Part shown: positions 47,148 through 61,424 of the stretch, piece by piece
How positions within the stretch are numbered: the stretch's first letter is position 1
How the letters are laid out: each line of letters begins with the position of its first letter
Assembly (NCBI RefSeq): GCF_003625485.1
Contig: NZ_RAIR01000002.1
Coordinates: forward strand, 124,001-188,000
Reading direction: 5' to 3'
Length of the DNA stretch: 64,000 nt
Origin: Butyrivibrio sp. CB08
GTDB taxonomy: Bacteria; Bacillota; Clostridia; Lachnospirales; Lachnospiraceae
Translations under genes and position numbers: made by a program
Notes under the pieces: model-generated
What the model was told of the DNA's origin: nothing
Databases searched by the model: none
Seen by the model: only the letters and a program-made list of their open reading frames with translations

Positions 47148-47330
47148 TCATGTGCCCGGCTCCAAGCTTTTTTCTATTTTAAAATTGATTACATTTATTA
47201 GAGTTGTCTTTTTGCATTTTTGGCAATGCAACGGAAACTTAATAAGCACCGTATCTTCGCAAACTTTTATTCTGGTTTTCTTATCACATTCCGGGCATCT
47301 TACCCATCGTGTCTTTTTTTCTTCATTCAT
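47148..47330 (-). CDS. Cysteine-rich KTR domain protein
   Basis: 60 residues: WVRCPECDKKTRIKVCEDTV then FPLHCQKCKKTTLINVINFK, a four-Cys zinc ribbon with the KTR sequence that names the family. These are common next to conjugative elements in gut Firmicutes, with no known function. RBS is weak (AAGAAG). Its promoter region holds a LytTR-type direct repeat at 47408-47439 with a GATAAA -10 box, so it seems to belong to the regulon of the neighbouring cluster. Confidence 0.8.
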   Translation of the reverse strand: MNEEKKTRWVRCPECDKKTRIKVCEDTVLIKFPLHCQKCKKTTLINVINFKIEKSLEPGT

Positions 47331-47371: not shown

Positions 47372-47439
47372 TTTATCACTTTGTCATTTAATTATCAATA
47401 TCAGTTGCATGAATGGACGTTATTTTGTCATGAAAAGAC
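47372..47439 (-). promoter_or_regulatory. LytTR-type direct-repeat promoter J (KTR gene)
   Basis: Minus-strand repeats GTCTTTTCATG (47429-47439) and GTCCATTCATG (47408-47418) are offset by 21 bp. Thirty bases further is GATAAA (47372-47377) as -10. Same geometry as six other sites in the window. Confidence 0.7.
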
Positions 47440-47485
47440 AAAATTGAGAATGTCATCTTTCTTTTACTCGCAAAACCTACAAAAC

Positions 47486-48523
47486 CTACAACATGGCCAT
47501 TCCAAAATAATCCATTATCCAGTTTCTGTCATCTGGATTTTTTAAAGGAATTCCATTACTGTTCAAATATTTGTGAATTCTGGCTTTTCCTTCTCTTAGC
47601 GAGTTGTCATAATGACTATTCCGTTGTATTTCCATCACCAGTTTTGAGTCACTACTGTCATTCGTTTTTCGTAAGTTCTTTGAGACATATTTCTCAACAA
47701 CAGTTTTTATCTCATCAAGATTTGAGTATCCCCTAAGATCAGCCCTTGCCTCGCAGAATAAAAATGACCTTGATGGTACAAAATCATTTGCAATAACTCC
47801 GGAGTCATCCAGACCCCTGTATATATTTATTGTCTTCTGATTCCATACACCATTGTATGTAATTCCTCCATCTATAAACGTACCGCTCTTATCAATTGCG
47901 TCATAGTCAGGTCTATTTATTCCGTACTGATCGGCCAGTTCGTTCAATGTATTCTTTACTATGCTCTGCATATCGGAATAAGCGTAGTAATAATCTGCAT
48001 TATAGTACATACTACCCTTGAGATTACTGTAATAATCCCCGGCGTCCTGCCTCAATCCGGTTTTGATATACAATTGCTCAGATTCGAGATAATTGTTTTC
48101 TGCTGCATATTGGGCATTGGCTCTTGACATATGCTCATACATTGTAGATAACGCTTTTGATATTCTTTCTTTGCTGACATTATTGAAGCTGCAGGTTTTC
48201 TTTACATACTCTACGACTTCATCTGCAGTTCTGGTACCGGAATAGTATTCCTTCATTACATCATCTGTTTCATGAAAAAGCGTATTCCAGCTTAAAAGCG
48301 GTATTTCAGCCATTCTGCTCTTAATATCATTATAGTTCTCACAGGGAATCGGGGCTGAAGACACTACGGGAGCCTCATATCTATATAAAGATGTTTCTGT
48401 ACCATCTTCATTAATCCTGTTAAAGCCACCGTCATCTCCCTTTCTAAGAGTAACAGTTTCATAACTGTTCTTCTGATAATAGCTAAATTCATATGTATCT
48501 GTCAGCCCCGTTTTCTGAATCAT
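47486..48523 (-). CDS. Unrecognised protein of the LytTR cluster, signal-less
   Basis: 345 residues, no signal peptide and no membrane helix. The N-terminus MIQKTGLTDTYEFSYYQKNS carries the aromatic Y-Y-Q motif seen in cluster mates. The remainder is Tyr/Asn-rich and mixed alpha/beta, with ITYNGVWNQKTINIYRGLDD and LREGKARIHKYLNSNGIPLK. No enzymatic motif is seen. Good RBS (AGGAGA). It is the last gene of the unit starting at promoter C. The role is unknown; export without a signal peptide, through the flagellar apparatus, is a guess from the company it keeps. Confidence 0.68.
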   Translation of the reverse strand: MIQKTGLTDTYEFSYYQKNSYETVTLRKGDDGGFNRINEDGTETSLYRYEAPVVSSAPIPCENYNDIKSRMAEIPLLSWNTLFHETDDVMKEYYSGTRTADEVVEYVKKTCSFNNVSKERISKALSTMYEHMSRANAQYAAENNYLESEQLYIKTGLRQDAGDYYSNLKGSMYYNADYYYAYSDMQSIVKNTLNELADQYGINRPDYDAIDKSGTFIDGGITYNGVWNQKTINIYRGLDDSGVIANDFVPSRSFLFCEARADLRGYSNLDEIKTVVEKYVSKNLRKTNDSSDSKLVMEIQRNSHYDNSLREGKARIHKYLNSNGIPLKNPDDRNWIMDYFGMAML

Positions 48524-48580
48524 AATAATTCTCCTGTATCATCCTGCGTCATACATTACTCATGGCATCATAAATTCATT

Positions 48581-49426
48581 TTACGTCCTCATTTTTGGGA
48601 ATTGCACATCAAAAATATCGATTCCATATGGGATATCTATTGTTCTATCTTCCTTTAATTCATATTCTTGCCCAGCAAAGGTGAATTTTGATCCTACAGG
48701 ATAGTCTTTGAATAATGCACTTCCCCTTTTGTTGTACATTTCATAAGTGGCATCATACTCAAATTTTCTTACACACACCCCTGCATTTCCGTTGGAATAA
48801 TAGTATTCTTGTTTTCTTGACCCTGATTCCACGCAAAAGAATCCTTCTTTTATGCCAGCGTCACCAAGCATCTGTTTCTGTTCTTCTGCACTGAAATAAA
48901 GTCCCAAGTATGTCCCATCACCAGAAAGCATATTCCAAAATTTAGTAATCTGGTAACTATTATTATTTTGTCTTCCAGCCAGCTGATCTGAATAAGGCTG
49001 ATTAATCCTGTCATGATCACAGGCAAAAGTATGTGTATACCCGCTACGGTCCGTATACTTGTAATAATTTCCATTCTCAAACCGAACTGTGTTGTTAATT
49101 GCCTGAATTGGGGAACACCAATCAGTATCAATCGAAGGAAGGTCTTTTTTTAATAGTTTTTTTCCATTGACTGTAATCGAATCAACAGATTCACCATGAT
49201 TCCTATGAATGTCCATGTAATTGAAATTAATCGCATCCATGACAGATCTTGATAATTTCGATTTATTCATCAACTTTTTGGAATAGGTAATAGAAGGCGA
49301 TATTAGTCCATGAACATATTCATCACGTTGAGTTCTGTTTCCCTTACTACGAGCTATTGTTGTATTTGAACCTTTGTATAGTAGCATTTGCGTCAAACTC
49401 AAATTAGGTTTCCTTTGTACCCTCAC
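48581..49426 (-). CDS. Unrecognised protein of the LytTR cluster
   Basis: 281 residues starting at GTG behind AGGAGG (9 bases). The N-terminus is basic (MRVQRKPNLSLTQMLLYKGS). It has no signal peptide or membrane span. A central YYKYTDRSGYTHTFACDHDR and a C-terminal beta-rich segment (VGSKFTFAGQEYELKEDRTI) are visible, but match no family I know. It lies 41 bases after the large two-domain paralog and 57 bases before the next gene, in one operon. Confidence 0.65.
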   Translation of the reverse strand: MRVQRKPNLSLTQMLLYKGSNTTIARSKGNRTQRDEYVHGLISPSITYSKKLMNKSKLSRSVMDAINFNYMDIHRNHGESVDSITVNGKKLLKKDLPSIDTDWCSPIQAINNTVRFENGNYYKYTDRSGYTHTFACDHDRINQPYSDQLAGRQNNNSYQITKFWNMLSGDGTYLGLYFSAEEQKQMLGDAGIKEGFFCVESGSRKQEYYYSNGNAGVCVRKFEYDATYEMYNKRGSALFKDYPVGSKFTFAGQEYELKEDRTIDIPYGIDIFDVQFPKMRT

Positions 49427-49466
49427 TAATATCGCCTCCTAACCCTAATTGAAGTATAGTAGTTTA

Positions 49467-51242
49467 TCAAGCATTCTTTTTCTTCTGTAAAACTGCCCAG
49501 TTAGCCAGGTCAAGGAAATCATTTCTGGGTGTTCTTGCATTAGCACGCTGCTCAGCCCACATATTATCCATGAAGTTACAGAACTCATCGAAAGAATAAC
49601 GTTTGCTGCCATTGTCGTACATGTACCATCTGCTCGCCGCATTGGGATCTTGCTCAAGCAGTCTTTCTCTGGTGAACTTCCAGTTTTTGTTAAGCTCCTG
49701 CTGGTTACTGGCAACCTTTTCGCCCATCATTCTTATGAACTCGTATCCATCCATAGCCTTCTGAATCTTGCCATTCTTCCAGTTTTCTTCGATGATATTC
49801 TTTACTCTTTCTGCCTCTTTCTCTCTGCTTTCCTGCGCTTTGCTAGCAGCCTCTTTTGACTCCTCTACGTTTTTATCGGTATCTCCAAGAAGCTTCTCCC
49901 ATTCTTCATCAGTCAGGTCGCCCAGATCCCTGTCTCCGCCCTGTGATAAAAAGAGATTACGGGTCTCTTCAAGCATCTTTAGAACAACTGATGCATCAAT
50001 TGTCTCGCCTGTCTTTTCCTTTGTGAAAGAAACCTTAGAACCTGACAAGGCACTATTCCAGTTCTGCTTCTTTGTCATGGCCTCTTCGAAATTTGAATAA
50101 CTGTTTTCTGAAAGAGGGTCTATAACGCTTTTCATGGAATGGAAGCTGCCAAAAGAATCAGATGTGCCTGTCCCATGTGCATCAGCATACTGACAGTATG
50201 CAAACATCTCTATTACCGTAGCATTCTTGGGATCAACCTCATCAACGTTCACGTCGATATCATGATCGTGTACATGAACCCTGACTATTTTTTCATCAGA
50301 ACCAGGCTTGATGACCTCAGAAGCAGTCATGACATAACTGTTGTTATTTCCTACCGGAATTGTTCCCATTCCATGAAGTGGTCTTACTTCCAGTTCTCCC
50401 AGATACTCTTCGCTCTCTTCTGGTTTATTTTCTGTTTTTTCAGCACCACCAATTTCTCTTGTTCCTTCAAAGGTTATTGACTGGAACCTAAAGCTGGTGC
50501 TCCCAAATGTACCAAAACCTCCTGTATCTCCCCAGACTTTTGCACCATTAAAGCTTGTTGCTGTAGCAGCAGGGTCCGGTGAGATGCCGGTTCCGATACC
50601 CGATGTCATCATAACTTCCATAAGCCTGTTTATATGCGACAGAAGCTGCTCTGCTCCAAGTGTACTTACACCCATAAGCTGATAGTTTTTGATTGAACCA
50701 TCAAGCTCAGACATATAGTTCTTTTTCTCAAAAATATCATCAGGCGCAACACTATCCACAGCTCCCATAGCCTCATCTGCCAGCCCTTCTGTATCCCTGA
50801 TGTATGAGCAAAGCGCTGCAAACTCTGTAAAATCAGAGTCAGTTGGATCTACGTTATAAGGGTCTATCTCCTTTGAAAACTCATTTCCGTTTTCATCGGT
50901 ACCTGTGGCGGTATACTTTCTGGTGTCCCCATCTACATCTATTCTGATCTGGAACTGCTGCATTACTCCCTGATAGGAATAAGCCGTTTTTCCATCTGCA
51001 AGCTGCGTCGCACCAAATCCGGAGTTCCAGATATTTGCAGTAATAACGCGGGTATAGCCCTTCTTAGCAGATGTATCTTCCTTAGCTACTGCGTCAGTAA
51101 GCTCCGGCGCTTCCTCATCCTTATCAAGAACCGCACTCTGAAAATCTCCGCTGCCAATAGTCTGGTTTGAATAATAGTGGGCACTCTGCACATACGCACT
51201 CTGGGTGTAATAATAATTTCCGTTTGTAATGGTATTTGACAT
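49467..51242 (-). CDS. Large cluster protein with two copies of the VDP-EM-AY domain
   Basis: 591 residues from the ATG at 51242 behind AGAAAGGAA. N-terminus MSNTITNGNYYYTQSAYVQS is Tyr/Gln-rich and signal-less. Two related domains are seen. One is about residues 105-200 (KEIDPYNVDPTDSDFTEFAA, LCSYIRDTEGLADEAMGAVD); the other about 305-385 (HVHDHDIDVNVDEVDPKNAT, VIEMFAYCQYADAHGTGTSD). Both resemble the single domain in the next two upstream genes. The C-terminal 160 residues are Lys/Glu-rich helices. A structural or surface role is likely but unproven. Confidence 0.68.
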   Translation of the reverse strand: MSNTITNGNYYYTQSAYVQSAHYYSNQTIGSGDFQSAVLDKDEEAPELTDAVAKEDTSAKKGYTRVITANIWNSGFGATQLADGKTAYSYQGVMQQFQIRIDVDGDTRKYTATGTDENGNEFSKEIDPYNVDPTDSDFTEFAALCSYIRDTEGLADEAMGAVDSVAPDDIFEKKNYMSELDGSIKNYQLMGVSTLGAEQLLSHINRLMEVMMTSGIGTGISPDPAATATSFNGAKVWGDTGGFGTFGSTSFRFQSITFEGTREIGGAEKTENKPEESEEYLGELEVRPLHGMGTIPVGNNNSYVMTASEVIKPGSDEKIVRVHVHDHDIDVNVDEVDPKNATVIEMFAYCQYADAHGTGTSDSFGSFHSMKSVIDPLSENSYSNFEEAMTKKQNWNSALSGSKVSFTKEKTGETIDASVVLKMLEETRNLFLSQGGDRDLGDLTDEEWEKLLGDTDKNVEESKEAASKAQESREKEAERVKNIIEENWKNGKIQKAMDGYEFIRMMGEKVASNQQELNKNWKFTRERLLEQDPNAASRWYMYDNGSKRYSFDEFCNFMDNMWAEQRANARTPRNDFLDLANWAVLQKKKNA

Positions 51243-51378
51243 AAGTGTTCCTTTCTGCGGCTCATCTGTCATTCAAAGCCGCTCCACTCTCCTGAAAGGA
51301 CCGAGTGGGTGCTACGTTTTTAGGTTCTTTACATTTAATCCTGGCCTCACCTTCCTTCATCATTTTCTATCCCTGGTA

Positions 51379-51996
51379 TTAAAGCCATTTAAGAAGATCC
51401 AACAATCCTTTCAGACCTCTTGGCGAAGCATTATTGTTCATATTTAACATAAGCTGCTGCTCGTACCAGCTCCTAAAGTTGATATTTGTACTCATATCCG
51501 CATCCGGTCTGCTATATTCCATCTTATGATGGGCAACCACAAGGTTCATCATCACATCCTTACTATCCAGCTTGCCCTCATCCTGAAGGTGTTGCATCCT
51601 CACGGATAGTTCTATAAAGTCACAGCTTGATGCATCTACTTTATCAACATCAATGTGTCTCTCTTCATATCTTCCATCGTTAAACTTTAGCTTGACCGTA
51701 TACTCAGAGTCTGTTCCTTCATCTCTGTAAACTTCTGCATCATATCCATATTTGCCGTCATACCAATGGAACGTAGGCTTTTTACTCTGCTGGTCATCTG
51801 CGATATCATTATCGTCGGAATTGATTCTGTTTTCTACGACATCTGCCTCATTTTCATAGGCTTTACTTTTCTCCATCAGTTTTGTTGCAAAAGAATCTGA
51901 AATGGATTCTTTATTATTACTGTCTGGTGGTCTGTCGCTTATACGAACGCCCTGATAGAAGCTCGTCTGACTAAGATACTGTACGTTTGTTACCAT
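51379..51996 (-). CDS. Single-domain paralog of the VDP-EM-AY family
   Basis: 205 residues from the ATG at 51996 (RBS GAGGCAGG); the longer GTG form would run through the leader. N-terminus MVTNVQYLSQTSFYQGVRIS has the F-Y-Q motif. The family domain is YTVKLKFNDGRYEERHIDVD then KVDASSCDFIELSVRMQHLQ, and EGKLDS. The C-terminal helix ends in Asn-rich LMLNMNNNASPRG. First gene of the C unit, with the 40-nt hairpin in its leader and a LytTR-type promoter. Confidence 0.68.
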   Translation of the reverse strand: MVTNVQYLSQTSFYQGVRISDRPPDSNNKESISDSFATKLMEKSKAYENEADVVENRINSDDNDIADDQQSKKPTFHWYDGKYGYDAEVYRDEGTDSEYTVKLKFNDGRYEERHIDVDKVDASSCDFIELSVRMQHLQDEGKLDSKDVMMNLVVAHHKMEYSRPDADMSTNINFRSWYEQQLMLNMNNNASPRGLKGLLDLLKWL

Positions 51997-52027
51997 ATTT
52001 TTCCTGCCTCTCTTAAAAAACACAAAT

Positions 52028-52067
52028 GCCGAATACCCCTAGACTTATCAATCCATTGATATCCGGC
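52028..52067 (-). promoter_or_regulatory. Conserved 40-nt 5-prime UTR hairpin, copy C
   Basis: Starts with GCCGGATATCAATGGATTGA, then 10 nt, then the closing arm GGTATTCGGC. Arms pair with two G-U pairs where copy B has G-C or A-U. An inner stem GGATT/AGTCT is possible. It begins about 10 nt after the predicted transcription start and ends 31 nt before the ATG. Confidence 0.75.
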
Positions 52068-52082
52068 TGTTCCTTCACTTTT

Positions 52083-52151
52083 TATATCGGAAATAACACA
52101 GGTCATCTTATATTGACAGCATGAATAGTCGCTAAATAGTCATAATTGGAC
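52083..52151 (-). promoter_or_regulatory. LytTR-type direct-repeat promoter C
   Basis: Repeats GTCCAATTATG (52141-52151) and GACTATTCATG (52120-52130), offset 21 bp; -10 GATATA at 52083-52088, 31 bp after the second repeat. It drives the four-gene unit 51996-47486. Confidence 0.7.
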
Positions 52152-52166
52152 TATTAACACCCTTAT

Positions 52167-52793
52167 CTACATGAATGCGTATGATTTCGTGTTTGCTCCA
52201 AAGAAATTCCGACTTTCTGAGAGTGCATCAAAAAACGCCTTAAACCGCAAATATCCCTGAGTATTTCCTATTGTGTACTGCATCTGCATCATGTCACGCG
52301 CAAGCTCCATGAAATTAGCTGACCCCAGGCCATCATAACTGGGATTCTTATCATAAATCTGACTCCTGCACATCAAAAAACTGTCAACAGCATTCTTACA
52401 CTTTCCGCTATCTGACAGATATGCAGAATAGGCATGCATTTCAGCCGTGGTAGCATTACTTGGATCAACCTCAGAAATCTTTACCATCTGCTCTGTTTTA
52501 TTTCCATCTTTATCCCATACCTCTACCCGATACTCAGGATCACTCTCATCAAAATCTGCAGGCTTATAAATAACGGTATTTACTCCTGATCGCGCATCCA
52601 CCCACGAACTAAGACACCTTGAGCCATCCGTAGGTGTTTTATCATAGTGAAGTGTAAGGCCTTCTGATAAGGAAATTGTTGATATACCCTTTCCTCCAAT
52701 AGCATTCTTAAAATCCCAGTTTTCTGCTTTATTTGTCTTTGATTCATTAATCCGCTGGTAAGAATATGTATTATCAACTGCTCCTATTCTCAT
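52167..52793 (-). CDS. Single-domain paralog of the VDP-EM-AY family
   Basis: About 208 residues; I choose the ATG at 52793 (9 bases after GGGG; another ATG six bases upstream is closer). N-terminus MRIGAVDNTYSYQRINESKT has the Y-S-Y-Q motif. The family domain is EVWDKDGNKTEQMVKISEVD then PSNATTAEMHAYSAYLSDSG. The C-terminus is helical (ELARDMMQMQYTIGNTQGYL). Single-gene unit with a LytTR promoter and hairpin leader, ending just before promoter C. Confidence 0.68.
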   Translation of the reverse strand: MRIGAVDNTYSYQRINESKTNKAENWDFKNAIGGKGISTISLSEGLTLHYDKTPTDGSRCLSSWVDARSGVNTVIYKPADFDESDPEYRVEVWDKDGNKTEQMVKISEVDPSNATTAEMHAYSAYLSDSGKCKNAVDSFLMCRSQIYDKNPSYDGLGSANFMELARDMMQMQYTIGNTQGYLRFKAFFDALSESRNFFGANTKSYAFM

Positions 52794-52821
52794 TGCCATT
52801 TCCCCTTTCAATATACAAAAT

Positions 52822-52861
52822 GCCGGATATCCAGGATTGTCTCAATCCATTGATATCCGGC
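52822..52861 (-). promoter_or_regulatory. Conserved 40-nt 5-prime UTR hairpin, copy B
   Basis: GCCGGATATCAATGGATTGA, 10 nt, GATATCCGGC. Arms are perfectly complementary over 10 bp, with an inner perfect stem GGATTG/CAATCC. It ends about 28 nt before the start codon. Confidence 0.78.
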
Positions 52862-52876
52862 TGTTCCATCAATTCT

Positions 52877-52946
52877 ATTATCGAAAAAAGCACCTGTAAT
52901 CTTTATATTTATGTCATGAATAGACGTTATAATGTCATGAATCGCA
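52877..52946 (-). promoter_or_regulatory. LytTR-type direct-repeat promoter B
   Basis: Repeats TGCGATTCATG (52936-52946) and GTCTATTCATG (52915-52925), offset 21 bp; -10 GATAAT at 52877-52882, 32 bp after the second repeat. It starts 5 bp after the end of the HD-GYP gene. Confidence 0.75.
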
Positions 52947-52951
52947 TATGC

Positions 52952-53563
52952 TTAATCATTTACTATAGTTGTCGGTCTGCACCTGTCCAGACTGTTCTTA
53001 GGTATTCTCACAAAAACATCAGCTATATCTTCATCAAGTTGGGTTCCGGAAACTTCCCGAATGATACTTATTGCGTCCTGGTGAGTTCTTTCGCCCTCAT
53101 AAGCTCTCTTCATCGTAATAGCAGAGTAAGTATCTGTTATGGCTATCATTCTGGACGCTGTAGGTATATCTTTTCCCTGTAAATGATAGTAGCCTATGCC
53201 ATCAATTCTCTCATGATGGTATAATACCCATTTTGCGATCTCGGAAGGAACCCCAATAGTATCAAGTGCTCTGGCCCCAAGCTCAGGATGAGTGCGTATT
53301 ATCTCCCATTCTGCTTCATCAAGTTTTGCCGGTTTATATAGTATGGCTCTGGGTATTTCAAGTTTCCCTATGTCATGCATTAGGGCAGCAATCTCTAAAT
53401 TCACAGGATCAACCTTGCATCTGTATACTTCCGGCAAAGCAGTATAAAGAGTCATGGTAAGTCTTTGTACATGCATGCTATGCCACAGCACTTCATTGTC
53501 ATCAAAGTATGCATATAGATCCTCTATCCTATTCTTCCACTCCAACGCTTGTTGAATACTCAA
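52952..53563 (-). CDS. HD-GYP-type phosphohydrolase (GYY variant)
   Basis: 203 residues, a stand-alone HD-GYP domain. The metal-binding HD is IAALMHDIGKLEIPRAILYK, then LDEAEWEIIRTHPELGARAL, then VLYHHERIDGIGYYHLQGKD-IP, where the signature GYP is GYY. SRMIAITDTYSAITMKRAYE completes the family pattern. Intact HD-GYPs break down c-di-GMP to pGpG or GMP; the Tyr change may alter activity or partners. Last gene of the RR1-HK1 unit (40 bases after the kinase), which links the LytTR system to c-di-GMP signalling. Confidence 0.85.
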   Translation of the reverse strand: MSIQQALEWKNRIEDLYAYFDDNEVLWHSMHVQRLTMTLYTALPEVYRCKVDPVNLEIAALMHDIGKLEIPRAILYKPAKLDEAEWEIIRTHPELGARALDTIGVPSEIAKWVLYHHERIDGIGYYHLQGKDIPTASRMIAITDTYSAITMKRAYEGERTHQDAISIIREVSGTQLDEDIADVFVRIPKNSLDRCRPTTIVND

Positions 53564-53603
53564 TTTCTAAAATTACCCCTTAGGAAAAGCGTAAAATACT
53601 GCA

Positions 53604-54881
53604 TCAGATCATTACTACCGCACTGAACTCCTGATCATTACAAGAGATTGCGAAACTGCCATCATACTTACTTGCTACATGTTCCACATTGATAAGCCCA
53701 ATCCCATGTCCTACCGAATTATTCCCCTGAACCTTATTGTCAATAATATCAACTCTCTGGGCTACAGGATTTTTAACCATAATTATTATGTTTCCATCCT
53801 TCTCAACGAATTTAACCTGTATTGAAGCCGTTCTACCGGTTGCAATTACCTTTTCACATTCATGAATAGCATTCTCAAGAAGATTTCCAAGTAGTACTAC
53901 AATATCCTCATCAGATATTCGGATGCTCTTAAGATCGCTTACTGCAAACGTCATTCCAATATTCTTTTCCTTGGCAATGCGATACTGCTGGTTCAAAACT
54001 GCATTTACCACTGGATGGCCAACATTTACCTCTGCAATTTCGACAGAAATACTCTTGGTGAGCTGTTCCACATACTCTGCAGCTGCACTAACATCCCCAC
54101 TTTTTAATAATTCCTGCACAGTGCCAAGCTGTTTTTTATAATCATGGAGTTTTCTTCCCTGTCGTTCATACAAGGACTGCATATCCCTGAATGCCTGTAG
54201 CTGATTCTGCTTACTTTCGATTTGTACCTCAGACAGCCTTATCTTCTCGTCTTTAATCATTAGTTCCTGTAACGCGAACAAGGCTGCGACATTTCCAATA
54301 AGCAACACCGCAGAAACAAACGTTTCAAATGGTCCCATAAGCGCTTGTGTGAAAAAAGAACCATAATACAAACCGGCAATAACACCTGCAAATGGCAACC
54401 ATATAAATTTCAAAAGCTGATTTGTAGGTCTTTTTAGCAGTTGTTTTATCTCAGGCATTTTCCATTTTAGCAGCCTTATGATCGCTGCCATGATTGTGTA
54501 TGCACCGCTTATTCCAAGTACAGAACGCCACATATACTTATCATCATATGTAAACTGCAGTACTCCAATCATTATTGTCGCTGATAAAGCCATAAATGTT
54601 GTATTGATGCTTGCAACAAATATAGCTGTTATAACGCTTGATTTGTAAAACACCTTCAGAAATACCACAAAAATATTCAACAGTATCAGTAATTTCAATG
54701 CTATATTAGTGGAAAAAGACTCAACCAAAAGCGCGTTTCCGCACATTGCTATATACAATGACACCCCTAAAACATATCTCCTGACAGAATTCCATTTATG
54801 GTCAAGAAATATATCAAAAAGCCACATGCTTAAGATCATTTCAATCGCGCTTGAAGCAAAAAAGAGAAACCATGCCATCAT
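53604..54881 (-). CDS. GHKL-domain sensor histidine kinase (AgrC-like), HK1
   Basis: 425 residues with about six to seven membrane helices in the first 205 residues and no large outside domain, like AgrC/ComD receptors of peptide pheromones. The phospho-His box is RKLHDYKKQLGTVQELLKSG. The GHKL ATPase has LLGNLLENAIHECEKV (N-box), IIMVKNPV and SVGHGIGLINVEHVASKYDG. It overlaps the LytTR regulator gene as ATGA and is its cognate partner. No AgrB or AgrD-like gene is in the window, so the ligand is unknown. Confidence 0.9.
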   Translation of the reverse strand: MMAWFLFFASSAIEMILSMWLFDIFLDHKWNSVRRYVLGVSLYIAMCGNALLVESFSTNIALKLLILLNIFVVFLKVFYKSSVITAIFVASINTTFMALSATIMIGVLQFTYDDKYMWRSVLGISGAYTIMAAIIRLLKWKMPEIKQLLKRPTNQLLKFIWLPFAGVIAGLYYGSFFTQALMGPFETFVSAVLLIGNVAALFALQELMIKDEKIRLSEVQIESKQNQLQAFRDMQSLYERQGRKLHDYKKQLGTVQELLKSGDVSAAAEYVEQLTKSISVEIAEVNVGHPVVNAVLNQQYRIAKEKNIGMTFAVSDLKSIRISDEDIVVLLGNLLENAIHECEKVIATGRTASIQVKFVEKDGNIIIMVKNPVAQRVDIIDNKVQGNNSVGHGIGLINVEHVASKYDGSFAISCNDQEFSAVVMI

Positions 54882-55588
54882 ATCCGATCCCCCGCGTAGA
54901 GAGCAAAAGCTCTTCTAACTTCTTTATATCTCCCCCGCGGAACAGGTAACTCCCTGCCGTCATCCAAAGTCAGAACATAGTTATTAATGCTTCTAACGTG
55001 ATCCATGTTTACAAGAAAACTGTTATGAATACGGAGAAATCCGTGCGGTTTAAGCTGTTCCTCCATATCATCCAGCTTCTTATATATCTGGTAGGTCTGA
55101 TTACTCAAATGGATAATATTCTTATGCCCTGCAGTTTCTACCAGTAAAATGTCCGCTGCTTTCAGGCAGACATCCCCACCCACACATGAAAACATTATCT
55201 TACTGGATCTTCTGTGCTTGTCACTGCAAATATGGTCCATGCACTCAAAGATAGTCTTATCCAAATCGTCTTTTATTAGGAACCGACTTGCTCTTACTTT
55301 ATAACCATCAAGAGCATAATTCATGTATGCAGTAACAAGGATTATCGGAACATCTTCCATATCCATTCGGATTTCCTTTGCTACAGCAAGTCCATCCATT
55401 CCTTCCATGTTAATATCAAGGAAAATGGCATCTGTGTCGGAATCTGTTTTTAGCGAGTGAATCAGCTCAGATCCCGATTTATACTCGGAAAAAGAAATGC
55501 CAATTCCTGTCTTTTTATCATATTCTTCAATTAGCTTCTCCAGTCTTTCTATATCCCTTATATCATCATCACATATTGAAATGTTCAT
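54878..55588 (-). CDS. LytTR-family response regulator, RR1
   Basis: 236 residues. Receiver 1-118 with ICDDDIRD acidic pocket, phospho-Asp58 in AIFLDINMEGMDG, and Lys in RFLIKDD. The LytTR DNA-binding domain (about 128-230) has DILLVETAGHKNIIHLSNQT, FLRIHNSFLVNMDHVRSINN and LPVPRGRYKEVRRAF. LytTR regulators bind pairs of direct repeats about 21 bp apart. One such pair lies in its own promoter (D) and six others nearby, so autoregulation and control of the cluster are inferred. Confidence 0.93.
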   Translation of the reverse strand: MNISICDDDIRDIERLEKLIEEYDKKTGIGISFSEYKSGSELIHSLKTDSDTDAIFLDINMEGMDGLAVAKEIRMDMEDVPIILVTAYMNYALDGYKVRASRFLIKDDLDKTIFECMDHICSDKHRRSSKIMFSCVGGDVCLKAADILLVETAGHKNIIHLSNQTYQIYKKLDDMEEQLKPHGFLRIHNSFLVNMDHVRSINNYVLTLDDGRELPVPRGRYKEVRRAFALYAGDRI

Positions 55589-55619
55589 AAAACACCTTCT
55601 TTCAAGTTCTACTAATAAT

Positions 55620-55687
55620 GATATCGGATATTTTATGAATATAAAAACATGGCAGCATGAATCGACTTCAAAATGGCATAAATCGGC
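55620..55687 (-). promoter_or_regulatory. LytTR-type direct-repeat promoter D (RR1-HK1-HD unit)
   Basis: Repeats GCCGATTTATG (55677-55687) and GTCGATTCATG (55656-55666), offset 21 bp; -10 GATATC at 55620-55625, 30 bp after. It precedes a LytTR regulator gene and lacks the hairpin leader. Confidence 0.7.
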
Positions 55688-55697
55688 GGTAATACAT

Positions 55698-55738
55698 TAA
55701 AAATCAAGAAGGCACTCCTTTGGTGGAATGCCTTGACG
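55698..55738 (-). terminator. Terminator of the FliD-like/calcium-loop unit
   Basis: Minus-strand TCAAGGCATTCC - loop - GGAGTGCCTTcTTGA followed by TTTTT, 12 bases after the stop at 55750. It lies directly beside promoter D. Confidence 0.8.
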
Positions 55739-55749
55739 ATTTCCAAAGC

Positions 55750-56730
55750 TTATGTGCCATATAACATTTTCCTATGCTCTATAGCCTTTTCAGTGAGTTC
55801 CTTGTTCAGATCCTGTCTTTTCTGGTAATCTTCGAGTTGCTTTTTCTGCCTAGCAGCCCTGGCTCTGCGTCTTGCAGCATTATCATTATTATTGCTCCGC
55901 CTCCTCTGGGAGTTTTCGCTTCGCATCTTTTCCAAAACTTCATCAAGCTTTTCTGCTGCACTCATAAGTTCAGATTCACGCCCCTTAATGGCGAGGTCAA
56001 CGTGCTGGATGGTTCCGGCTGTGCCATCTTCTTTCAGGAAAATGCCTGTTTTACGAACCTTCCCATCCAGAACGCCATCCTCACCTTCAAGGGTAAACTC
56101 CGTATCTTCCGATCCCAGGAAAATTGCACCTACCCCAGAGTCTTTTAGGCTCTTAAGCTCATCCTTCCCATCTTCTGTTCTGGTCCATACCTTAAGCTTC
56201 TCAAAAACCTCATCGTTTTCATCAATCCAGCCGTTGCCATCGCTGTCATATTCAGCCAGATCAGAAAAACCGTCACCGCTCTTAACTCCAAAGAGTTCAT
56301 TGCCATCATTTATCTTGCCATCTCCATTTTTATCAAGTGCCAGGAATCCGCTTCCCGCCTTCGTCATGGAGATTTCATCCTCCTTGCCATCTGCATCCAG
56401 GTCGAATTTAAATTTCTTATCACTAAGCCCGGATGTCTGGGCATTGGTATTGATGATCAGCGGATCAAAAAGGTTATCCAGAGGTGATGACATTGCAATA
56501 AAGGTTTCATGCTCTTTCTTCCTCGCCATGCTCACATCTACATCGACATTGATCTCTCTGCCATCCTCTGTCTGTACTTTTCCGGATGCTGTATAATCCG
56601 TCTTTTCTTTTTCTATATGCTTTTCTACAATGCCTGCAAAAAATCCGCTAGTCCCTGCGCCGGTTGCTGCCAAATCCTTTTGATAGCTGTAGTTTGCATT
56701 TGAATACACATCACTATTTGCTATCTTCAT
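55750..56730 (-). CDS. Calcium-loop (EF-hand-like) cluster protein
   Basis: 326 residues, signal-less N-terminus MKIANSDVYSNANYSYQKDL with the Y-S-Y-Q motif. Three Asp-rich loops suggest calcium binding: DLDADGKEDE (about 110), DKNGDGKINDGNE (about 133) and YDSDGNGWIDENDE (about 162), followed by LKVWTRTEDGKDELKSLKDS. This block occurs in many large secreted or flagellum-linked bacterial proteins. The C-terminal 55 residues are very basic (RRRSNNNDNAARRRARAARQ). RBS GAGGT. Second gene after the FliD-like protein; 34 bases apart. Confidence 0.78.
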   Translation of the reverse strand: MKIANSDVYSNANYSYQKDLAATGAGTSGFFAGIVEKHIEKEKTDYTASGKVQTEDGREINVDVDVSMARKKEHETFIAMSSPLDNLFDPLIINTNAQTSGLSDKKFKFDLDADGKEDEISMTKAGSGFLALDKNGDGKINDGNELFGVKSGDGFSDLAEYDSDGNGWIDENDEVFEKLKVWTRTEDGKDELKSLKDSGVGAIFLGSEDTEFTLEGEDGVLDGKVRKTGIFLKEDGTAGTIQHVDLAIKGRESELMSAAEKLDEVLEKMRSENSQRRRSNNNDNAARRRARAARQKKQLEDYQKRQDLNKELTEKAIEHRKMLYGT

Positions 56731-56764
56731 ATGTTTTTACCTCGTCTGCGCCTGCCTGCTAAGA

Positions 56765-57526
56765 TCAGAACCAGCTTGAGAACATGGATGAAAGCATCGA
56801 AGCATATCCTCCATATCCTCCCAAGAAACTGTTTGTTCCGTATCTTCCATTTGATCCATAAATACCGCTTGTTGCAGCGTTATACCTTGTGGCTGTAACG
56901 GCTGCCTGCGATGTCAAAGAAGCATTATTACGCATTCTCTGTCCAAAAGATCCTGTATTTCCAAGAGTCTTCTTAACAGTCTCTTTGTCTGCTCCCTTAA
57001 GAACATCCTCATCAACAGATAATTCCCCAGTCTTACTATTAAATCCAATTCCGATTTTTCTTAGATCAGATACATTGTTAAGGGCATCTTCCCTCATCCA
57101 TCCGGCACGGTTTCTTACTGTTGTACTTGTGGTATTTCTGGCATTGTTATTTACTTCGTTATATCCTTCCACAAAGTTCTTTACCGTCTTAAGGAGCTGA
57201 TCCGTGTTCTTTTCCTCATAAAGTTCACCATATGAGAGCTTTCGTCCAGCATTCTCTACTTTCACTGCTCCATCGGCTACGGACTGATCTGACATATAAT
57301 TTCTGTTGTATGTCGTGTTATAGGCATTGTTCATGGCCTTGATGGTATTAGCACTGAGTCCAAAATAACTGTTATTGTTTCCAAGTCCGGTCGTTCGTGA
57401 CGTACCACGTGTTCCTGTGGTTCTGTTTCTGCTGTTAACATTAGACGTTCCCTGTCTGTTCCAGATATTGGAGGCTCCGCCAAACCTGCTTGTCAGGACA
57501 TCAAAATAGTTTTGCCCAAAGTTCAT
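56765..57526 (-). CDS. FliD C-terminal-like (flagellar cap-related) protein
   Basis: 253 residues, ATG at 57526 behind AAGGAGG. The N-terminal 60 residues are Asn/Arg/Gly/Thr-rich and signal-less (MNFGQNYFDVLTSRFGGASN). The rest resembles the C-terminal half of the filament cap FliD: LLKTVKNFVEGYNEVNNNAR, ALNNVSDLRKIGIGFNSKTG and ELSVDEDVLKGADKETVKKT. A Gly/Tyr/Ser tail ends in SSMFSSWF. Full FliD is 450 or more residues, so this is a short derivative. FliD relatives leave the cell through the flagellar type III apparatus, which suggests the export route of the cluster. Confidence 0.72.
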   Translation of the reverse strand: MNFGQNYFDVLTSRFGGASNIWNRQGTSNVNSRNRTTGTRGTSRTTGLGNNNSYFGLSANTIKAMNNAYNTTYNRNYMSDQSVADGAVKVENAGRKLSYGELYEEKNTDQLLKTVKNFVEGYNEVNNNARNTTSTTVRNRAGWMREDALNNVSDLRKIGIGFNSKTGELSVDEDVLKGADKETVKKTLGNTGSFGQRMRNNASLTSQAAVTATRYNAATSGIYGSNGRYGTNSFLGGYGGYASMLSSMFSSWF

Positions 57527-57569
57527 AAAAAACACCTCCTTCTATGGACGTACATTTTGTTTCAATTCA

Positions 57570-57639
57570 AGTATCGTCCATAAAAAGAGGCGTTTAAATA
57601 GCTTTGTCACGAACGGACATATTTATGTAATGAATAGTT
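57570..57639 (-). promoter_or_regulatory. LytTR-type direct-repeat promoter E (FliD-like unit)
   Basis: Repeats AACTATTCATT (57629-57639) and GTCCGTTCGTG (57608-57618), offset 21 bp; -10 GATACT at 57570-57575, 32 bp after. The repeats overlap the last codons of the HK2 gene. This is the most diverged pair. Confidence 0.6.
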
Positions 57640-59040
57640 ATTATCTGTATTTTGTAACATTATCTTTACTTCAAAGACATTGTTTTCCGTCTTAATCTCC
57701 ACTGCTCCAAGATACTTCTCAGCTATGTTCTGTACACTCTTAAGGCCAATTCCATGCAGTTCATCTTCTGCCCCAAGTTTTTTTCTGCTGACTATACTGT
57801 TTTCAGAATCTCTTTTGACAATTCCATCATAAGCATTTTCGATATTTATAAGATAGAAGTTATCTTTTACTCTTCCGGTCAGTTTAATATACCGGTTTCC
57901 AACCCGAACCTCAGAAACCGCTTCAAGAGCATTATCCAAGAGATTATTCAGAATAATTCCCATATCAAGAGCACTGATTTCGTTATCATCAGGGAATGAA
58001 AAGTCGCAGTCAAATCGGCAATCTAACTTCTCACAAGATGCAGTAGCTTCATTTATCACCACATCAGTTACCGGATTTCCAGTTGAATATTTAAAGCCAC
58101 CGGAATTAAGCTCAATATCCATTTCCCCCAGGAACTGCTTTGCATCCTCAAGTCTTCCTGCTTCAAGGAAGCTCTTTATTATCATAAACTTACCTGCCAT
58201 ATCATGGCGAAGAGTCCTGATCTGATCATGGTATTTTTCGGTATATTCTATTTTCTTTTTGATAAACTCCTGCTCATGAAGCTGTTCCTGCAATATCAAC
58301 TCTTCTTCCTTAAGTCTCCTGTACCTCTGCCAGGTCGCAATGGCTGACATTTCACCGGCAAAGATAAGGATTGCAAGAACCGGCAACATCCATTTGATAT
58401 CCTTTTTCTCCTCAAACAACACGAACACCTCGTTTTCCAAAGGAACAATCATTACCTCAGCTATCATGTATACTATAAAATACGAAATCACAGAATAAAC
58501 CGACAGATACAAAGCTTCCGTCAGGCTCATATCATACTTCTTTTTGCATATCACCTTAATGATAAAGTGCGAAACCATGAAATAAACACATAGAAATAGG
58601 ATAGCTATAGCAAACAGAATCGACATCCTGCCATACATCTGTTCCATGGCATTTTCCGCTGAATAATCCAGAGTCTCTATGATCAGATCTCCCAAGATAT
58701 CATTGGTTACTGTATTCATCAGAAACCATACATAATAGACATTTGTCCAGAGCAGCAGCACAAATGCGATATGTGGCATATATTGTCTGTTATAGAAAAA
58801 GAAAACTGCAAGAACTGTGATAAGACTTATATATGTCCATACCCCTCTTGTTGATACCGGCAGCGAAAACAGAACCACGCCTTCTACAGTCACTACCGCC
58901 GACAGAATGATATTTTTTTTATTATCTAAAACCGATTGAGCAAAAAAGGTTTTTATCAGCAATCCCAGAAAAATGCCTCTCACTATGATCATGGCATATC
59001 CATAGCCATCCTGAAACAGCAAAAATAGTTCCTCTGACAT
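57607..59040 (-). CDS. GHKL-domain sensor histidine kinase, HK2
   Basis: 477 residues. About six to seven membrane helices occupy residues 10-235, followed by a coiled coil with the phospho-His box HDQIRTLRHDMAGKFMIIKS and a GHKL ATPase (LNNLLDNALEAVSEVRVGNR, INIENAYDG, HGIGLKSVQNIAEKYLGAVE). It lies 25 bases after its LytTR regulator. The same class as HK1 but with a different sensor part, so a second signal is likely. The end of the gene doubles as regulatory DNA for the next unit. Confidence 0.9.
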   Translation of the reverse strand: MSEELFLLFQDGYGYAMIIVRGIFLGLLIKTFFAQSVLDNKKNIILSAVVTVEGVVLFSLPVSTRGVWTYISLITVLAVFFFYNRQYMPHIAFVLLLWTNVYYVWFLMNTVTNDILGDLIIETLDYSAENAMEQMYGRMSILFAIAILFLCVYFMVSHFIIKVICKKKYDMSLTEALYLSVYSVISYFIVYMIAEVMIVPLENEVFVLFEEKKDIKWMLPVLAILIFAGEMSAIATWQRYRRLKEEELILQEQLHEQEFIKKKIEYTEKYHDQIRTLRHDMAGKFMIIKSFLEAGRLEDAKQFLGEMDIELNSGGFKYSTGNPVTDVVINEATASCEKLDCRFDCDFSFPDDNEISALDMGIILNNLLDNALEAVSEVRVGNRYIKLTGRVKDNFYLINIENAYDGIVKRDSENSIVSRKKLGAEDELHGIGLKSVQNIAEKYLGAVEIKTENNVFEVKIMLQNTDNNYSLHKYVRS

Positions 59041-59065
59041 AAAAAGTCTAGCTCCCCCTCTAAAT

Positions 59066-59830
59066 CTATGATATGAAATCCATATATGCCCTGATAAAAT
59101 CAGAATACTTATACTTGGAAATAATCAATAGTTCGCCGTTATCTACCTGAACCTCTGTCCTGGAATAACCAACCACATGACTGAGGTTTACAAGGTATCC
59201 TCTGTGAATCCTGAAAAAGTCTTTTCCAAGCGCCTCTTCAAATTCGGCCATCTGCTTATAAACCTCATATTTCTTTTCGTTCAAATGAACAATGGCTTTC
59301 CTTCCAGAGCTTTCCACGTAAAGAATATCCTTATGCTTAACATTGACGATTCCTTTACCGGATTGTAATGCTATAAACGCATCTGACATATCTGCATAAG
59401 AAGTCTCACAGACGAGCTGTGCATCCAGCTTTTTAAGTTCCTCCACAGCCCTGTGAAGTTCACCATCAAAAGAAGGTCTTGAAACAGGCTTTAACAAATA
59501 ACCATACGCTTTTACCCCAAAAGCATCACCCATTCTGTCTGGAATCCCTGTAACATATATGATAAGCGGCCTGGATGCACGCATGCTTTTGCCATTATTC
59601 TCTATTCTGGTTACAAGTTTTTTAGCAATCTCTATACCGTCACTCGCTCCCATGGCAATATCAAGGAAAAGAACATCTATCCTTGTCCCGGTATCAATAT
59701 CCTTTATGAGTTCTTCCCCTGATGAATAATCACTTATCTGTGCTTTGTATGGACTATCTGACAGCCATCCATGAAGCAGATCCCTTACAGCTTTTTCATC
59801 GTCACACACAGCAAAATGGTATTTTTCCAT
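59066..59830 (-). CDS. LytTR-family response regulator, RR2
   Basis: 254 residues. Receiver with AVCDDEKAVRDLL, phospho-Asp57 in VLFLDIAMGASDG and Lys in GYLLKPVSRPSFDG. The LytTR domain has DILYVESSGRKAIVHLNEKK, FFRIHRGYLVNLSHVVGYSR and ELLIISKYKYSDFIRAYMDF. Upstream lies promoter F with the same direct repeats as RR1, so the two regulators may bind the same sites and regulate each other. Confidence 0.93.
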   Translation of the reverse strand: MEKYHFAVCDDEKAVRDLLHGWLSDSPYKAQISDYSSGEELIKDIDTGTRIDVLFLDIAMGASDGIEIAKKLVTRIENNGKSMRASRPLIIYVTGIPDRMGDAFGVKAYGYLLKPVSRPSFDGELHRAVEELKKLDAQLVCETSYADMSDAFIALQSGKGIVNVKHKDILYVESSGRKAIVHLNEKKYEVYKQMAEFEEALGKDFFRIHRGYLVNLSHVVGYSRTEVQVDNGELLIISKYKYSDFIRAYMDFIS

Positions 59831-59909
59831 TTACAGACACCTCTTTTATCCACAACCAAAAATGCTTAGCATGGAGCCCCATGTAAGCACTTTTGACTTT
59901 AGCACCATA

Positions 59910-59983
59910 TTTATCATAACATCATAGAAATTATCGTTTACACAAGGATGTAATGAATGGACATTTTTTTGTCATGAATGGTC
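59910..59983 (-). promoter_or_regulatory. LytTR-type direct-repeat promoter F (RR2-HK2 unit)
   Basis: Repeats GACCATTCATG (59973-59983) and GTCCATTCATT (59952-59962), offset 21 bp; a -10-like TTATGATAAAT lies 33-36 bp after (GATAAA at 59910-59915). The 270-bp gap 59831-60101 holds only this promoter as far as I can see. Confidence 0.65.
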
Positions 59984-60101
59984 AAGAATTAAATTGCCTC
60001 CAACTCATCACTGTTACCACCATGTTTTCTACCCTCCATGCTCTGTATTTTATATATCGAGTTCAACTATTGTTTATGCCGAACAAATCAATCAGCTATT
60101 G

Positions 60102-61076
60102 TCAGATAAGACCACCGCTTGTTTCATCCAGTTGTCTTTCACGTAATGCACGCAAGGAATTACTTCCTTCATCTTCATATATCATTAGAAGAGTAAGATA
60201 ATTACCACTCTTCTTACATTCACCCAAGAGACATCTCATGCTTTCTGATGTTCTGCCAAACATCATTCCCAGAAGTCCCATATCATAGTAACTCTGTTTA
60301 TCACTCAGAATTCCCTGTTCATGAAGATCTTCCATAAGCCCGTTTATCCTTACTTCTTTTCCAATCTCCTGAGCTCTGTTATACAGATCAGGATCTACTC
60401 GTCTTAAATAGTCCAAATATCGGGTCTCAATATTCCTGTTTGGTGTACCACTCATTATCCAATTAGATATGTCTTCAAGTGACGCTCCCACCTCATAGTC
60501 CTGGATTAGATTCATCCGTACTCGTCCTGATTCATCAGTAGTAAATGTATATTTACCATCTTCGGAATACATGGTTGAAGAGCCAGGGTACTTGGGCATT
60601 GCTTCCTGTTTAACCAAAACTTCAAATGCATCATTAACCTTTCTGTATGCTTCCTTAGGGCTATCATCGTCTGTCACTGTCACTTTCCCCGCTGATACAG
60701 CTATCTGTAATAATTCATAATCAGTCACATTTCTTCCATGATAATAATATTGCTTATTATCTTTTAATTGTTCATATACAGACGGAAGGGATGTGTTTTT
60801 GACAGCAAACTCATCACTACCTGACCACTCAGCCGCTTCTTTGCATCCTGCAGTTCTCTTTCTGATACTTGGTCCGTTTGTTATGGCTGTTCCATACTTG
60901 TCAACCAGCATATGCTCAGTAATCGTCACTGAAGCAAATTCAAAAAGACTACCTTTGTTCGATGTATTACCATATCCAGAAACCTTGTATGAATATGGAA
61001 AACCACCACTTTTTCTTTCACTTCTTAAAGCTGAATATGTACCTGAATAGGGAATACCTCTGTTGTGAACAATCAT
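60102..61076 (-). CDS. Unrecognised protein of the LytTR cluster
   Basis: 324 residues starting at an ATG 7 bases after GGAGG. The N-terminus MIVHNRGIPYSGTYSALRSE is signal-less and no membrane segment is seen. A central segment (MYSEDGKYTFTTDESGRVRM, LIQDYEVGASLEDISNWIMS) leads to a helical C-terminus (DPDLYNRAQEIGKEVRINGL). No known family is evident. Single-gene unit whose leader has hairpin copy A and whose promoter has the direct repeats. Confidence 0.66.
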   Translation of the reverse strand: MIVHNRGIPYSGTYSALRSERKSGGFPYSYKVSGYGNTSNKGSLFEFASVTITEHMLVDKYGTAITNGPSIRKRTAGCKEAAEWSGSDEFAVKNTSLPSVYEQLKDNKQYYYHGRNVTDYELLQIAVSAGKVTVTDDDSPKEAYRKVNDAFEVLVKQEAMPKYPGSSTMYSEDGKYTFTTDESGRVRMNLIQDYEVGASLEDISNWIMSGTPNRNIETRYLDYLRRVDPDLYNRAQEIGKEVRINGLMEDLHEQGILSDKQSYYDMGLLGMMFGRTSESMRCLLGECKKSGNYLTLLMIYEDEGSNSLRALRERQLDETSGGLI

Positions 61077-61101
61077 TTAATGACCTCCGATAATAACAAA
61101 T

Positions 61102-61141
61102 GCCGAACATCCATGAATTTTTCAATCCATTGATATCCGGC
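61102..61141 (-). promoter_or_regulatory. Conserved 40-nt 5-prime UTR hairpin, copy A
   Basis: GCCGGATATCAATGGATTGA, 10 nt, GATGTTCGGC. The 10-bp stem keeps pairing through two G-U pairs, and the inner TGGATT/AATTCA stem is also kept by a G-U. It ends 25 nt before the ATG. The 3-prime arm contains CATGGATGT, close to a CsrA-type binding sequence. Confidence 0.75.
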
Positions 61142-61159
61142 AAATCCTTTGCTGATATT

Positions 61160-61228
61160 ATTATCGGAAAAAGTATTGTTTTGTTTATAGAAACGTCACA
61201 AATAGACGGTCATAATGCATGAATGTTA
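61160..61228 (-). promoter_or_regulatory. LytTR-type direct-repeat promoter A
   Basis: Repeats TAACATTCATG (61218-61228) and GTCTATTTGTG (61197-61207), offset 21 bp; -10 GATAAT at 61160-61165, 31 bp after. It drives the 61076-60102 gene. Confidence 0.7.
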
Positions 61229-61235
61229 TCTATGC

Positions 61236-61424
61236 CTATATGTCTATCGACGAAGCACTTGTCATCTGTGGCGCAGGAACAGAAACTCTTATACTCTGGG
61301 GGACTGAAAGTGTTGTTGCCAAAGAACTTCCGCTGCCACCTCCCATGCCTTGCATAGACGCATTCTTCGCAAGCTCATGCTTTATCATATTCTTGAGATA
61401 TTCCGTGCTTAGTTTATTTTGAAA
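61236..61424 (-). pseudogene. Truncated copy of the C-terminus of the 62997-61903 gene
   Basis: The minus strand encodes, without a start codon, LSTEYLKNMIKHELAKNASM followed by a Gly-Met-Gly linker, VPQSIRVSVPAPQM and SIDI before a stop. This aligns with the last 55 residues of the gene two positions upstream (EYLKDMIKHELAKNASM, LPQSIGISVSAPQM, TIDIQA). The frame upstream is closed by a stop. It is a tandem-duplication remnant lying right after the FlxA-like gene. Confidence 0.85.

Follow-up and report, generated by a model that had tools for sequence, protein, structure and literature searches.

A cluster of LytTR-type boxes in Butyrivibrio

We analysed a 64,000-nucleotide stretch of the Butyrivibrio sp. 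CB08 genome (contig NZ_RAIR01000002.1, positions 124,001 to 188,000; hereafter the window), which carries a cluster of minus-strand genes encoding two LytTR response regulators, two sensor kinases and a series of output proteins, set in an integrative and conjugative element (ICE). A preliminary description had reported seven minus-strand sites in this cluster, each made of two half-sites offset by exactly 21 bp. All seven are present as 32-bp boxes at the reported positions:

47408-47439, minus strand: LytTR-type box, before a 60-amino-acid Zn-ribbon-like open reading frame (ORF; 47148-47330)
52120-52151, minus strand: LytTR-type box, before output gene 51379-51996 and the genes after it
52915-52946, minus strand: LytTR-type box, before output gene 52167-52799
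55656-55687, minus strand: LytTR-type box, before the second regulator, RR2
57608-57639, minus strand: LytTR-type box, within the 3' end of HK1, before the FliD-like gene
59952-59983, minus strand: LytTR-type box, before RR1
61197-61228, minus strand: LytTR-type box, before output gene 60102-61076

The regulatory genes of the cluster are:

59066-59830, minus strand: RR1, response regulator with a LytTR DNA-binding domain
57607-59040, minus strand: HK1, sensor kinase with a GHKL ATPase domain
54878-55588, minus strand: RR2, second LytTR response regulator
53604-54881, minus strand: HK2, second GHKL sensor kinase
52952-53563, minus strand: HD-domain protein following HK2, TTG start

The boxes had been placed upstream of minus-strand genes, two of them before LytTR regulators. 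This stands, RR1 and RR2 being the regulators concerned, with the qualification that the box at 57608 overlaps the 3' end of a kinase gene (57607-59040). A LytTR response regulator adjoins a GHKL kinase, and no AgrB/AgrD-type peptide gene was found among the ORFs scanned with Pfam, a scan that took in short ORFs only in part. The RR1 leader holds a further hairpin ending in a T run (~59858-59894, minus strand), seen by eye and similar in locus L030 of a relative; it could be an attenuator.

A two-box pattern allowing at most three mismatches recovered five of the seven boxes, against 0.01 expected, and none of 100 shuffles gave five; the two missed boxes, 57608 and 61197, have more than three mismatches. 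With a 32-mer matrix the seven score 27.6-39.1 bits, and the next-best matches in the window reach 14.8 bits (overlapping site 52915) and 12.5 bits. Leave-one-out scores were 15.6-33.4 bits, the lowest being that of site 61197 (15.6 bits), near the window background. The downstream half-site is the better conserved one, and the upstream half deviates from GTC at 52915, 57608 and 61197.

To place the boxes in the 3.54-Mb genome we used a sequence-only model of 18 sites, nine from this genome and nine from the relative G011, with the sites of a second relative, G007, excluded. It returned nine matches at E<=1, all within C19:171408-191043 (~20 kb): the seven boxes and two more past the window edge, at ~65878 and ~67012 in window coordinates (L027:2878 and L027:4012). 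Since the nine sites helped to train the model, its informative result is that no other genomic match was found, in a search whose filters may drop weak matches. That the boxes belong to a LytTR regulon is well supported: they are specific to this cluster, and their spacing agrees with published LytTR sites.

Boxes recur in relatives together with RR1

A matrix built from the seven window boxes only was run at a 13-bit threshold on loci fetched from relatives. It found nine boxes in G011 (loci L029 and L030; 21.8-39.9 bits) and nine in G007 (L031 and L043; 26.7-41.2 bits), whose cluster proteins mostly share 55-91% identity with their window counterparts. The extra matches were one weak hit in L030 (13.5 bits) and, in each genome, one match of 18.8 bits overlapping a true site. 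In L032-L041, ten loci whose homologs of protein 52167 are more distant, no box was found.

Among 61 genomes, a close RR1 ortholog (66-100% identity) occurs in 13, each of them with a box at E<0.01, compared with three of the 48 genomes that have no such ortholog (G010, G015 and G022; Fisher p 9e-11); one of the genomes, G026, is nearly identical to CB08 and not independent of it. In G010 the contig is 3507 bases long and ends 78 bases from the box, and in G022 the contig has the box at base 54; RR1 may therefore be missing through truncation in both. In G015 the RR1 match is partial only (47% over 94 residues) and lies on a different contig from the box.

The inspected relatives keep a common order of box, RR1, HK1, box in the HK1 3' end, FliD-like gene and homolog of gene 55750, with some members absent or lost at contig ends. 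Pseudobutyrivibrio ruminis (L194) has the same order with an RR1 of 39% identity, and this RR1 is preceded by a perfect 15-bp repeat at offset 21, both half-sites having changed together. Apart from N runs, the ~1.0 Mb of loci fetched contains just three other runs of at least 13 at that offset. Co-occurrence, gene order and the concerted half-site change make RR1 the likely reader of the boxes; AgrA (3bs1) is among its relatives with a solved structure. The compact local regulon that the preliminary description proposed is well supported, its boxes being confined to one cluster of the genome, recurring in related clusters and co-occurring with the RR1 gene. Separately, a third regulator/kinase pair of LytTR type occurs at L083:16451, L087:15679 and L090:6501; close to the 3' end of the kinase gene it has a box of its own, a weaker one that scores 18.5-24.5 bits.

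Promoters behind the boxes

All sites had been assigned the same GATAAT-like -10 element. That uniformity does not hold: the sequences behind the boxes fall in more than one class. We trained a matrix for the flagellar sigma factor SigD (sigma-28) on five flagellar promoters of the same genome (flgM twice, flaG and two flagellins) and scored the 50 nt after each box. Five of the nine sites reach at least 12 bits (52120, 16.6; 52915, 12.6; 57608, 12.3; 61197, 17.0; 65878, 13.2), and at these five 9-11 bp separate the end of the box from the -35 downstream of it. Published LytTR sites show a bias of ~10 bp to the -35 (PMC6193735), and the SigD consensus is given as TAAA-N15-GCCGATAT (PMC5200910, PMC3865298). 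The elements in the window are:

52084-52110, minus strand: sigma-28-type promoter TAAG-N15-TCCGATAT (-35 at 52107-52110, -10 at 52084-52091), 16.6 bits
52878-52905, minus strand: sigma-28-type promoter TAAA-N16-TTCGATAA, 12.6 bits
57571-57596, minus strand: sigma-28-type promoter TAAA-N14-GACGATAC, 12.3 bits; GACGATAC conserved in most relatives inspected
61161-61187, minus strand: sigma-28-type promoter TAAA-N15-TCCGATAA, 17.0 bits
55621-55628, minus strand: -10 TCCGATAT behind box 55656, without a good -35
47372-47377, minus strand: GATAAA behind box 47408, no sigma-28 fit
59913-59918, minus strand: sigma-A-like TATGAT behind box 59952 (box+33)

When relatives are included, 22 of 39 sites score at least 8 bits, against 6.4% of shuffles, the relatives' sites being orthologs rather than independent events. 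A generic sigma-70 scan was uninformative (59 matches, 50.3 in shuffles). Behind box 59952, the element conserved in relatives is, by eye, a TATGAT-like one at box+33 and not GATAAA at +36. Eleven RR1-type promoters likewise carry TATGAT, TAATAT or TATTAT at box+32/+33 (by eye; in L084 RR1 itself is cut off), and site 67012 has a SigA-like TATAAT. From the -10 type of RR1 and the SigD scores, the regulator seems to be driven by SigA and most of the larger output units by SigD. The -10 of the promoter before the FliD-like gene lies within an inverted repeat, TATGGACG...CGTCCATA (~57543-57582, minus strand).

Leader hairpins

Three transcripts of the cluster have a hairpin with an AATGGA motif in their leaders:

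52028-52067, minus strand: leader hairpin with AATGGA motif
52822-52861, minus strand: leader hairpin with AATGGA motif
61102-61141, minus strand: leader hairpin with AATGGA motif

Their stems are very stable, with fold z-scores of -3.9 to -6.1. A covariance model of seven hairpins matched the same three places only in the CB08 genome (E<=0.5), with more matches in relatives. A search of Rfam assigned the hairpins to no family, either within window 42800-64000 (E<=1) or at L106, L108, L114 and L158 (gathering threshold). Across 15 hairpins 98% of the stem cells are paired, compared with at most 43% when the stem is slid; two stem pairs are altered on both sides, a number reached by 18 of 500 shuffles.

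We then assembled 20 hairpins, leaving out L110-L113, L115, L116 and four weak matches (G007:C72, G022:C13 and two in G057). Opposite-strand matches of palindromic hairpins were counted once, and the GGA strand was used for L106-L109 and L114. A SigD-type promoter of at least 12 bits lies upstream of 16 of the 20, against 0.65% of random 90-nt windows not restricted to intergenic DNA; with the near-identical orthologs L081, L093, L095 and L097 counted once, the figure is 13 of 17. The hairpin starts 16-25 nt after the -10, and most hairpin genes without a box have strong SigD-type promoters. Of the matches left out, L110-L113 (E 0.01-0.26) have a SigD promoter of at least 12 bits in none of four cases on either strand. 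No output gene was recognised downstream of the L107 hairpin. The leader motif was also considered as a two-codon upstream ORF (ATG GAT TGA), a candidate we rejected because L029:14607 and L029:17497 keep the GGA without the ORF.

In a genome from another family of the order (G039, locus L114), an AATGGA hairpin, matched at E 0.29 only, follows a 13.1-bit SigD-type promoter and precedes a 202-amino-acid protein without a Pfam match. Judging from this locus, the leader hairpin may be older than the genus.

Output proteins and their predicted export

The output genes of the window are:

56765-57526, minus strand: FliD-like protein with disordered ends
55750-56730, minus strand: conserved partner of the FliD-like gene; EF-hand-like match below cut-off only
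52167-52799, minus strand: output protein with a VD.VDPsNATxxE-like motif common to 51379 and 49467; no Pfam family
51379-51996, minus strand: output protein with a VD.VDPsNATxxE-like motif
49467-51242, minus strand: output protein with the VD.VDPsNATxxE-like motif twice
48581-49426, minus strand: output protein, no family, GTG start
47486-48523, minus strand: output protein, no family
60102-61076, minus strand: output protein, no family above cut-off
61434-61865, minus strand: output protein, no family above cut-off
61903-62997, minus strand: output protein, no family
63020-63673, minus strand: output protein, no family above cut-off; follows the DUF6033 gene (~63755-64636)

At the Pfam cut-off, ten of these eleven proteins have no family; the protein just past the window edge is a DUF6033 member. 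The remaining one, 56765-57526, matches FliD_C just above the cut-off (26.4 vs 25.4 bits) over part of the profile (114-181 of 236), and in a profile search of the PDB its sole match was FliD, at weak E-values of 0.015 and 0.037. Pfam found no FliD_N domain in it, a domain that the FliD of the same genome has, and we therefore class it as FliD-like rather than as FliD. Homologs occur in 18 of the 61 genomes, and homologs of 52167 in 14. Seventeen named loci carry a relative of the FliD-like protein (15 Butyrivibrio, one Pseudobutyrivibrio ruminis, one Cellulosilyticum), the nearest being a water-buffalo rumen Butyrivibrio metagenome-assembled genome. A fragment at 61236-61388 (minus strand) matches the C-terminal end of 61903-62997 at 70% identity (50 residues) and is a duplication remnant.

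AlphaFold models of two output proteins have low-confidence first segments of 58 and 47 residues and better cores (mean predicted local distance difference test 66 and 70), and disordered N-termini are predicted for both. We compared the first 40 residues of 13 output proteins with those of other proteins, excluding four genes behind boxes (47148, 52952, L027:2943 and L027:3325). In polarity they resemble those of seven flagellar substrates (medians 0.53 and 0.47), and they differ from those of 92 other predicted proteins (median 0.30, p 2e-7). By composition and hydropathy, their N-termini have no strongly hydrophobic stretch.

The module is cargo of an integrative and conjugative element

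The landmarks of the element within the window are:

43294-44403, minus strand: tyrosine integrase of the ICE
43152-43168: 17-bp attachment (att) repeat, with a second copy at the 3' end of tRNA-Leu(AAG), ~84410 in window coordinates

The att repeats lie ~41 kb apart and delimit an ICE of ~41 kb in tRNA-Leu, with genes for an integrase, a relaxase, PrgI, VirB4-like and TrbL-like proteins, coupling proteins and ParB. The box module takes up ~20 kb of it, between integrase and relaxase. Classing the element from these genes and the att repeats, we conclude that the module is cargo of an ICE in this genome. Two further features of the window are of note: a 28-bp match to the tRNA-Leu 3' end (43078-43105, plus strand), inverted relative to the att repeat and beside a terminator-like hairpin, which looks like a truncated second tRNA-Leu end; and a pemK RNA (RF02913, 59.1 bits; 45165-45242, minus strand) upstream of the PemK toxin gene 44562-45017.

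A proposed mechanism and its alternatives

We propose, with moderate confidence, that the cluster is a signal-gated LytTR system that activates SigD promoters of predicted flagellar-export substrates, with CsrA-type control of leaders, carried as ICE cargo. A signal would lead HK1 to activate RR1, which would bind both half-sites, with RR2 and HK2 as a second input. At its own SigA-like promoter, RR1 would exert positive feedback. At most output genes, bound 9-11 bp upstream of the -35, it would aid SigD polymerase at TAA(A/G/T)-N14-16-NNCGATA, so that output would require the signal plus an active flagellar programme. On three transcripts, the ANGGA of the 5' hairpin would be recognised by CsrA, which (with FliW) probably represses translation. 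Because they show no hydrophobic signal, most products are probably exported via the flagellar type III apparatus. In favour of this reading, the genome encodes FlhA, FlgM, FliW, CsrA, FliD and flagellin. More tentatively, and with rather less than even expectation, we suggest that a mobile element here carries signal-gated flagellar secretion, its own LytTR system acting as a dedicated activator of SigD promoters and, together with CsrA-type leaders, loading the host export apparatus with element proteins only under signal.

Several observations weigh against this proposal. Four of the nine sites score below 12 bits: 55656 fits in part (7.7 bits, a perfect sigma-28 -10 with a poor -35), and 59952 (5.4), 47408 (3.0) and 67012 (1.9) have no sigma-28 fit. 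Five of the 22 sites above 8 bits are RR1 promoters of relatives, at 9.0-9.5 bits, which blurs the two promoter classes. Genome-wide, the bare SigD pattern is not enriched (17 matches, 18 in a reversed control), so the SigD claim depends on where the elements lie with respect to box and hairpin; a 12-bit SigD promoter is missing at four of the 20 hairpins, L029:17497 included. Foldseek returned no match at E<=0.001 for either AlphaFold model, and the four genes excluded from the N-terminus comparison (the Zn-ribbon-like ORF, the HD-domain protein and two genes behind 67012) are dissimilar, the last two having hydrophobic N-termini. FlhA is present in 53 of the 61 genomes, so that co-occurrence cannot discriminate flagellar export. 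RR2 has a box too, so that RR1 may not be the sole regulator.

On the promoter evidence, the cluster might be a plain LytTR regulon with ordinary SigA promoters, its CGATA likeness an AT-rich chance and its outputs unrelated to flagella. The SigA-like promoters of RR1 and 67012 (TATAAT), the three of nine sites without a SigD fit and the missing genome-wide enrichment speak for this, yet five of nine sites reach 12 bits with a matrix trained elsewhere, GACGATAC is conserved at the HK1-end promoter of most relatives inspected, most box-less hairpin genes have strong SigD-type promoters and one product is FliD-like; we regard it as unlikely. We give a slightly smaller chance to RR2 (54878-55588) being the main activator or competing with RR1 for the boxes. 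The cluster does hold two LytTR regulators, and RR2 has its own box at 55656; among the nine boxes of G011, the one before RR2 scores lowest (21.8 bits), and no RR2 ortholog was found in the inspected loci L081-L096, which keep the boxes and all or part of RR1, with at most 20 kb viewed per genome.

The setting of the module, between integrase and relaxase of an ICE bearing a type IV secretion system (T4SS), raises a further alternative, in which the outputs serve conjugation as T4SS partners, surface exclusion or mating-pair factors and the LytTR system times ICE transfer. The G011 and G030 clusters also accompany homologs of ICE genes. We consider this the least probable of the alternatives, as no box precedes the relaxase or T4SS genes and the core in L092, L093 and L095 has no nearby BLAST homolog of the element's relaxase or T4SS genes. 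A more serious competitor, to which we give a little under an even chance, concerns the leader: the hairpin may serve 5' stability or bind another factor instead of CsrA. The stem is very stable and the GGA is frequently paired in predicted folds, which makes CsrA control only a hypothesis. Conversely, [CA]A[AT]GGA is present in 16 of 16 listed hairpins, a motif that is partly selected, since seven hairpins built the model by which the others were found; ANGGA is retained even though the upper part of the hairpin varies on its 3' side; and fliW and csrA are adjacent in the genome.

Relation to known systems

LytTR regulators are familiar from the control of bacteriocins, competence and toxins, and the preliminary description gave the period seen here for the AgrA, ComE, BlpR and VirR sites as well. 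The cluster has the LytTR domain in common with AgrA, VirR, ComE, YpdB and the HdrRM and BrsRM LytTR Regulatory Systems. Links of LytTR regulators to bacteriocins, competence and toxins are also made in PMC6193735. Known sites consist of 9-bp repeats 12 bp apart, a 21-bp period, and lie ~10 bp ahead of the -35, in front of the gene for the regulator itself (PMC6193735, PMC4847170); the cluster is alike, and the spacing earlier likened to known LytTR sites agrees with these sources. The YpdB site GGCATTTCAT resembles the ATTCAT of the cluster boxes (PMC4847170). The box sequence itself is not among the LytTR sites described in the available portions of PMC6193735 and PMC4847170. Unlike known LytTR systems, the output promoters are mostly SigD-type and the outputs flagellar-like, not bacteriocins or toxins.

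Campylobacter proteins secreted by the flagellum are under sigma-28 control, and we know of no LytTR switch for them. Cia, Fed and FlaC are non-flagellar proteins that leave through the flagellar export apparatus (PMC5223770, PMC2764114, PMC4863622), a route that is predicted here; Campylobacter belongs to a different phylum, and the likeness is one of description. An activator just upstream of a sigma-28 promoter, as we propose, is seen with CRP at aer and trg of E. coli (PMC2859248). CRP is a global regulator, whereas the cluster has a dedicated two-component system and its own gene set. The CsrA-FliW flagellin leaders have ANGGA in 5' stem-loops, with the motif (C/A)A(A/T)GGA, as in the cluster leaders (PMC4894983). 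The cluster differs from them in that each leader has a single hairpin, which in several genes lies tens of bases or more ahead of the start codon, and in that the GGA is partly paired.

We know of no paired boxes on SigD promoters for AgrA of C. difficile. This LytTR regulator has been studied with colonization and flagellar genes (PMC3754575); the cluster differs from its system in that no Agr peptide gene was recognised among the cluster ORFs scanned. Within the genus, Butyrivibrio proteoclasticus B316 has three LytTR response regulators beside secreted GH3 enzymes (PMC2914790), a setting set apart from ours by description. Our literature search combined LytTR with Butyrivibrio, with ICEs and with sigma-28 or flagellar promoters, and SigD with AgrA; most subscription papers lay outside it. 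Among the matches listed, the regulon is undescribed, and no mention of DUF6033 was found. The parts are of known kinds; what we have not seen before is the way they are combined, with SigD-type promoters of predicted flagellar cargo placed under a dedicated LytTR system.

The cluster offers a delimited set of genes with exact operators, and it allows simple predictions about proteins without a known role, such as DUF6033. It suggests that an ICE may be able to bring its own flagellar cargo. A dedicated LytTR activator on flagellar sigma-28 promoters, if true, would connect signalling directly with the choice of proteins that a gut bacterium sends out through its flagellum.

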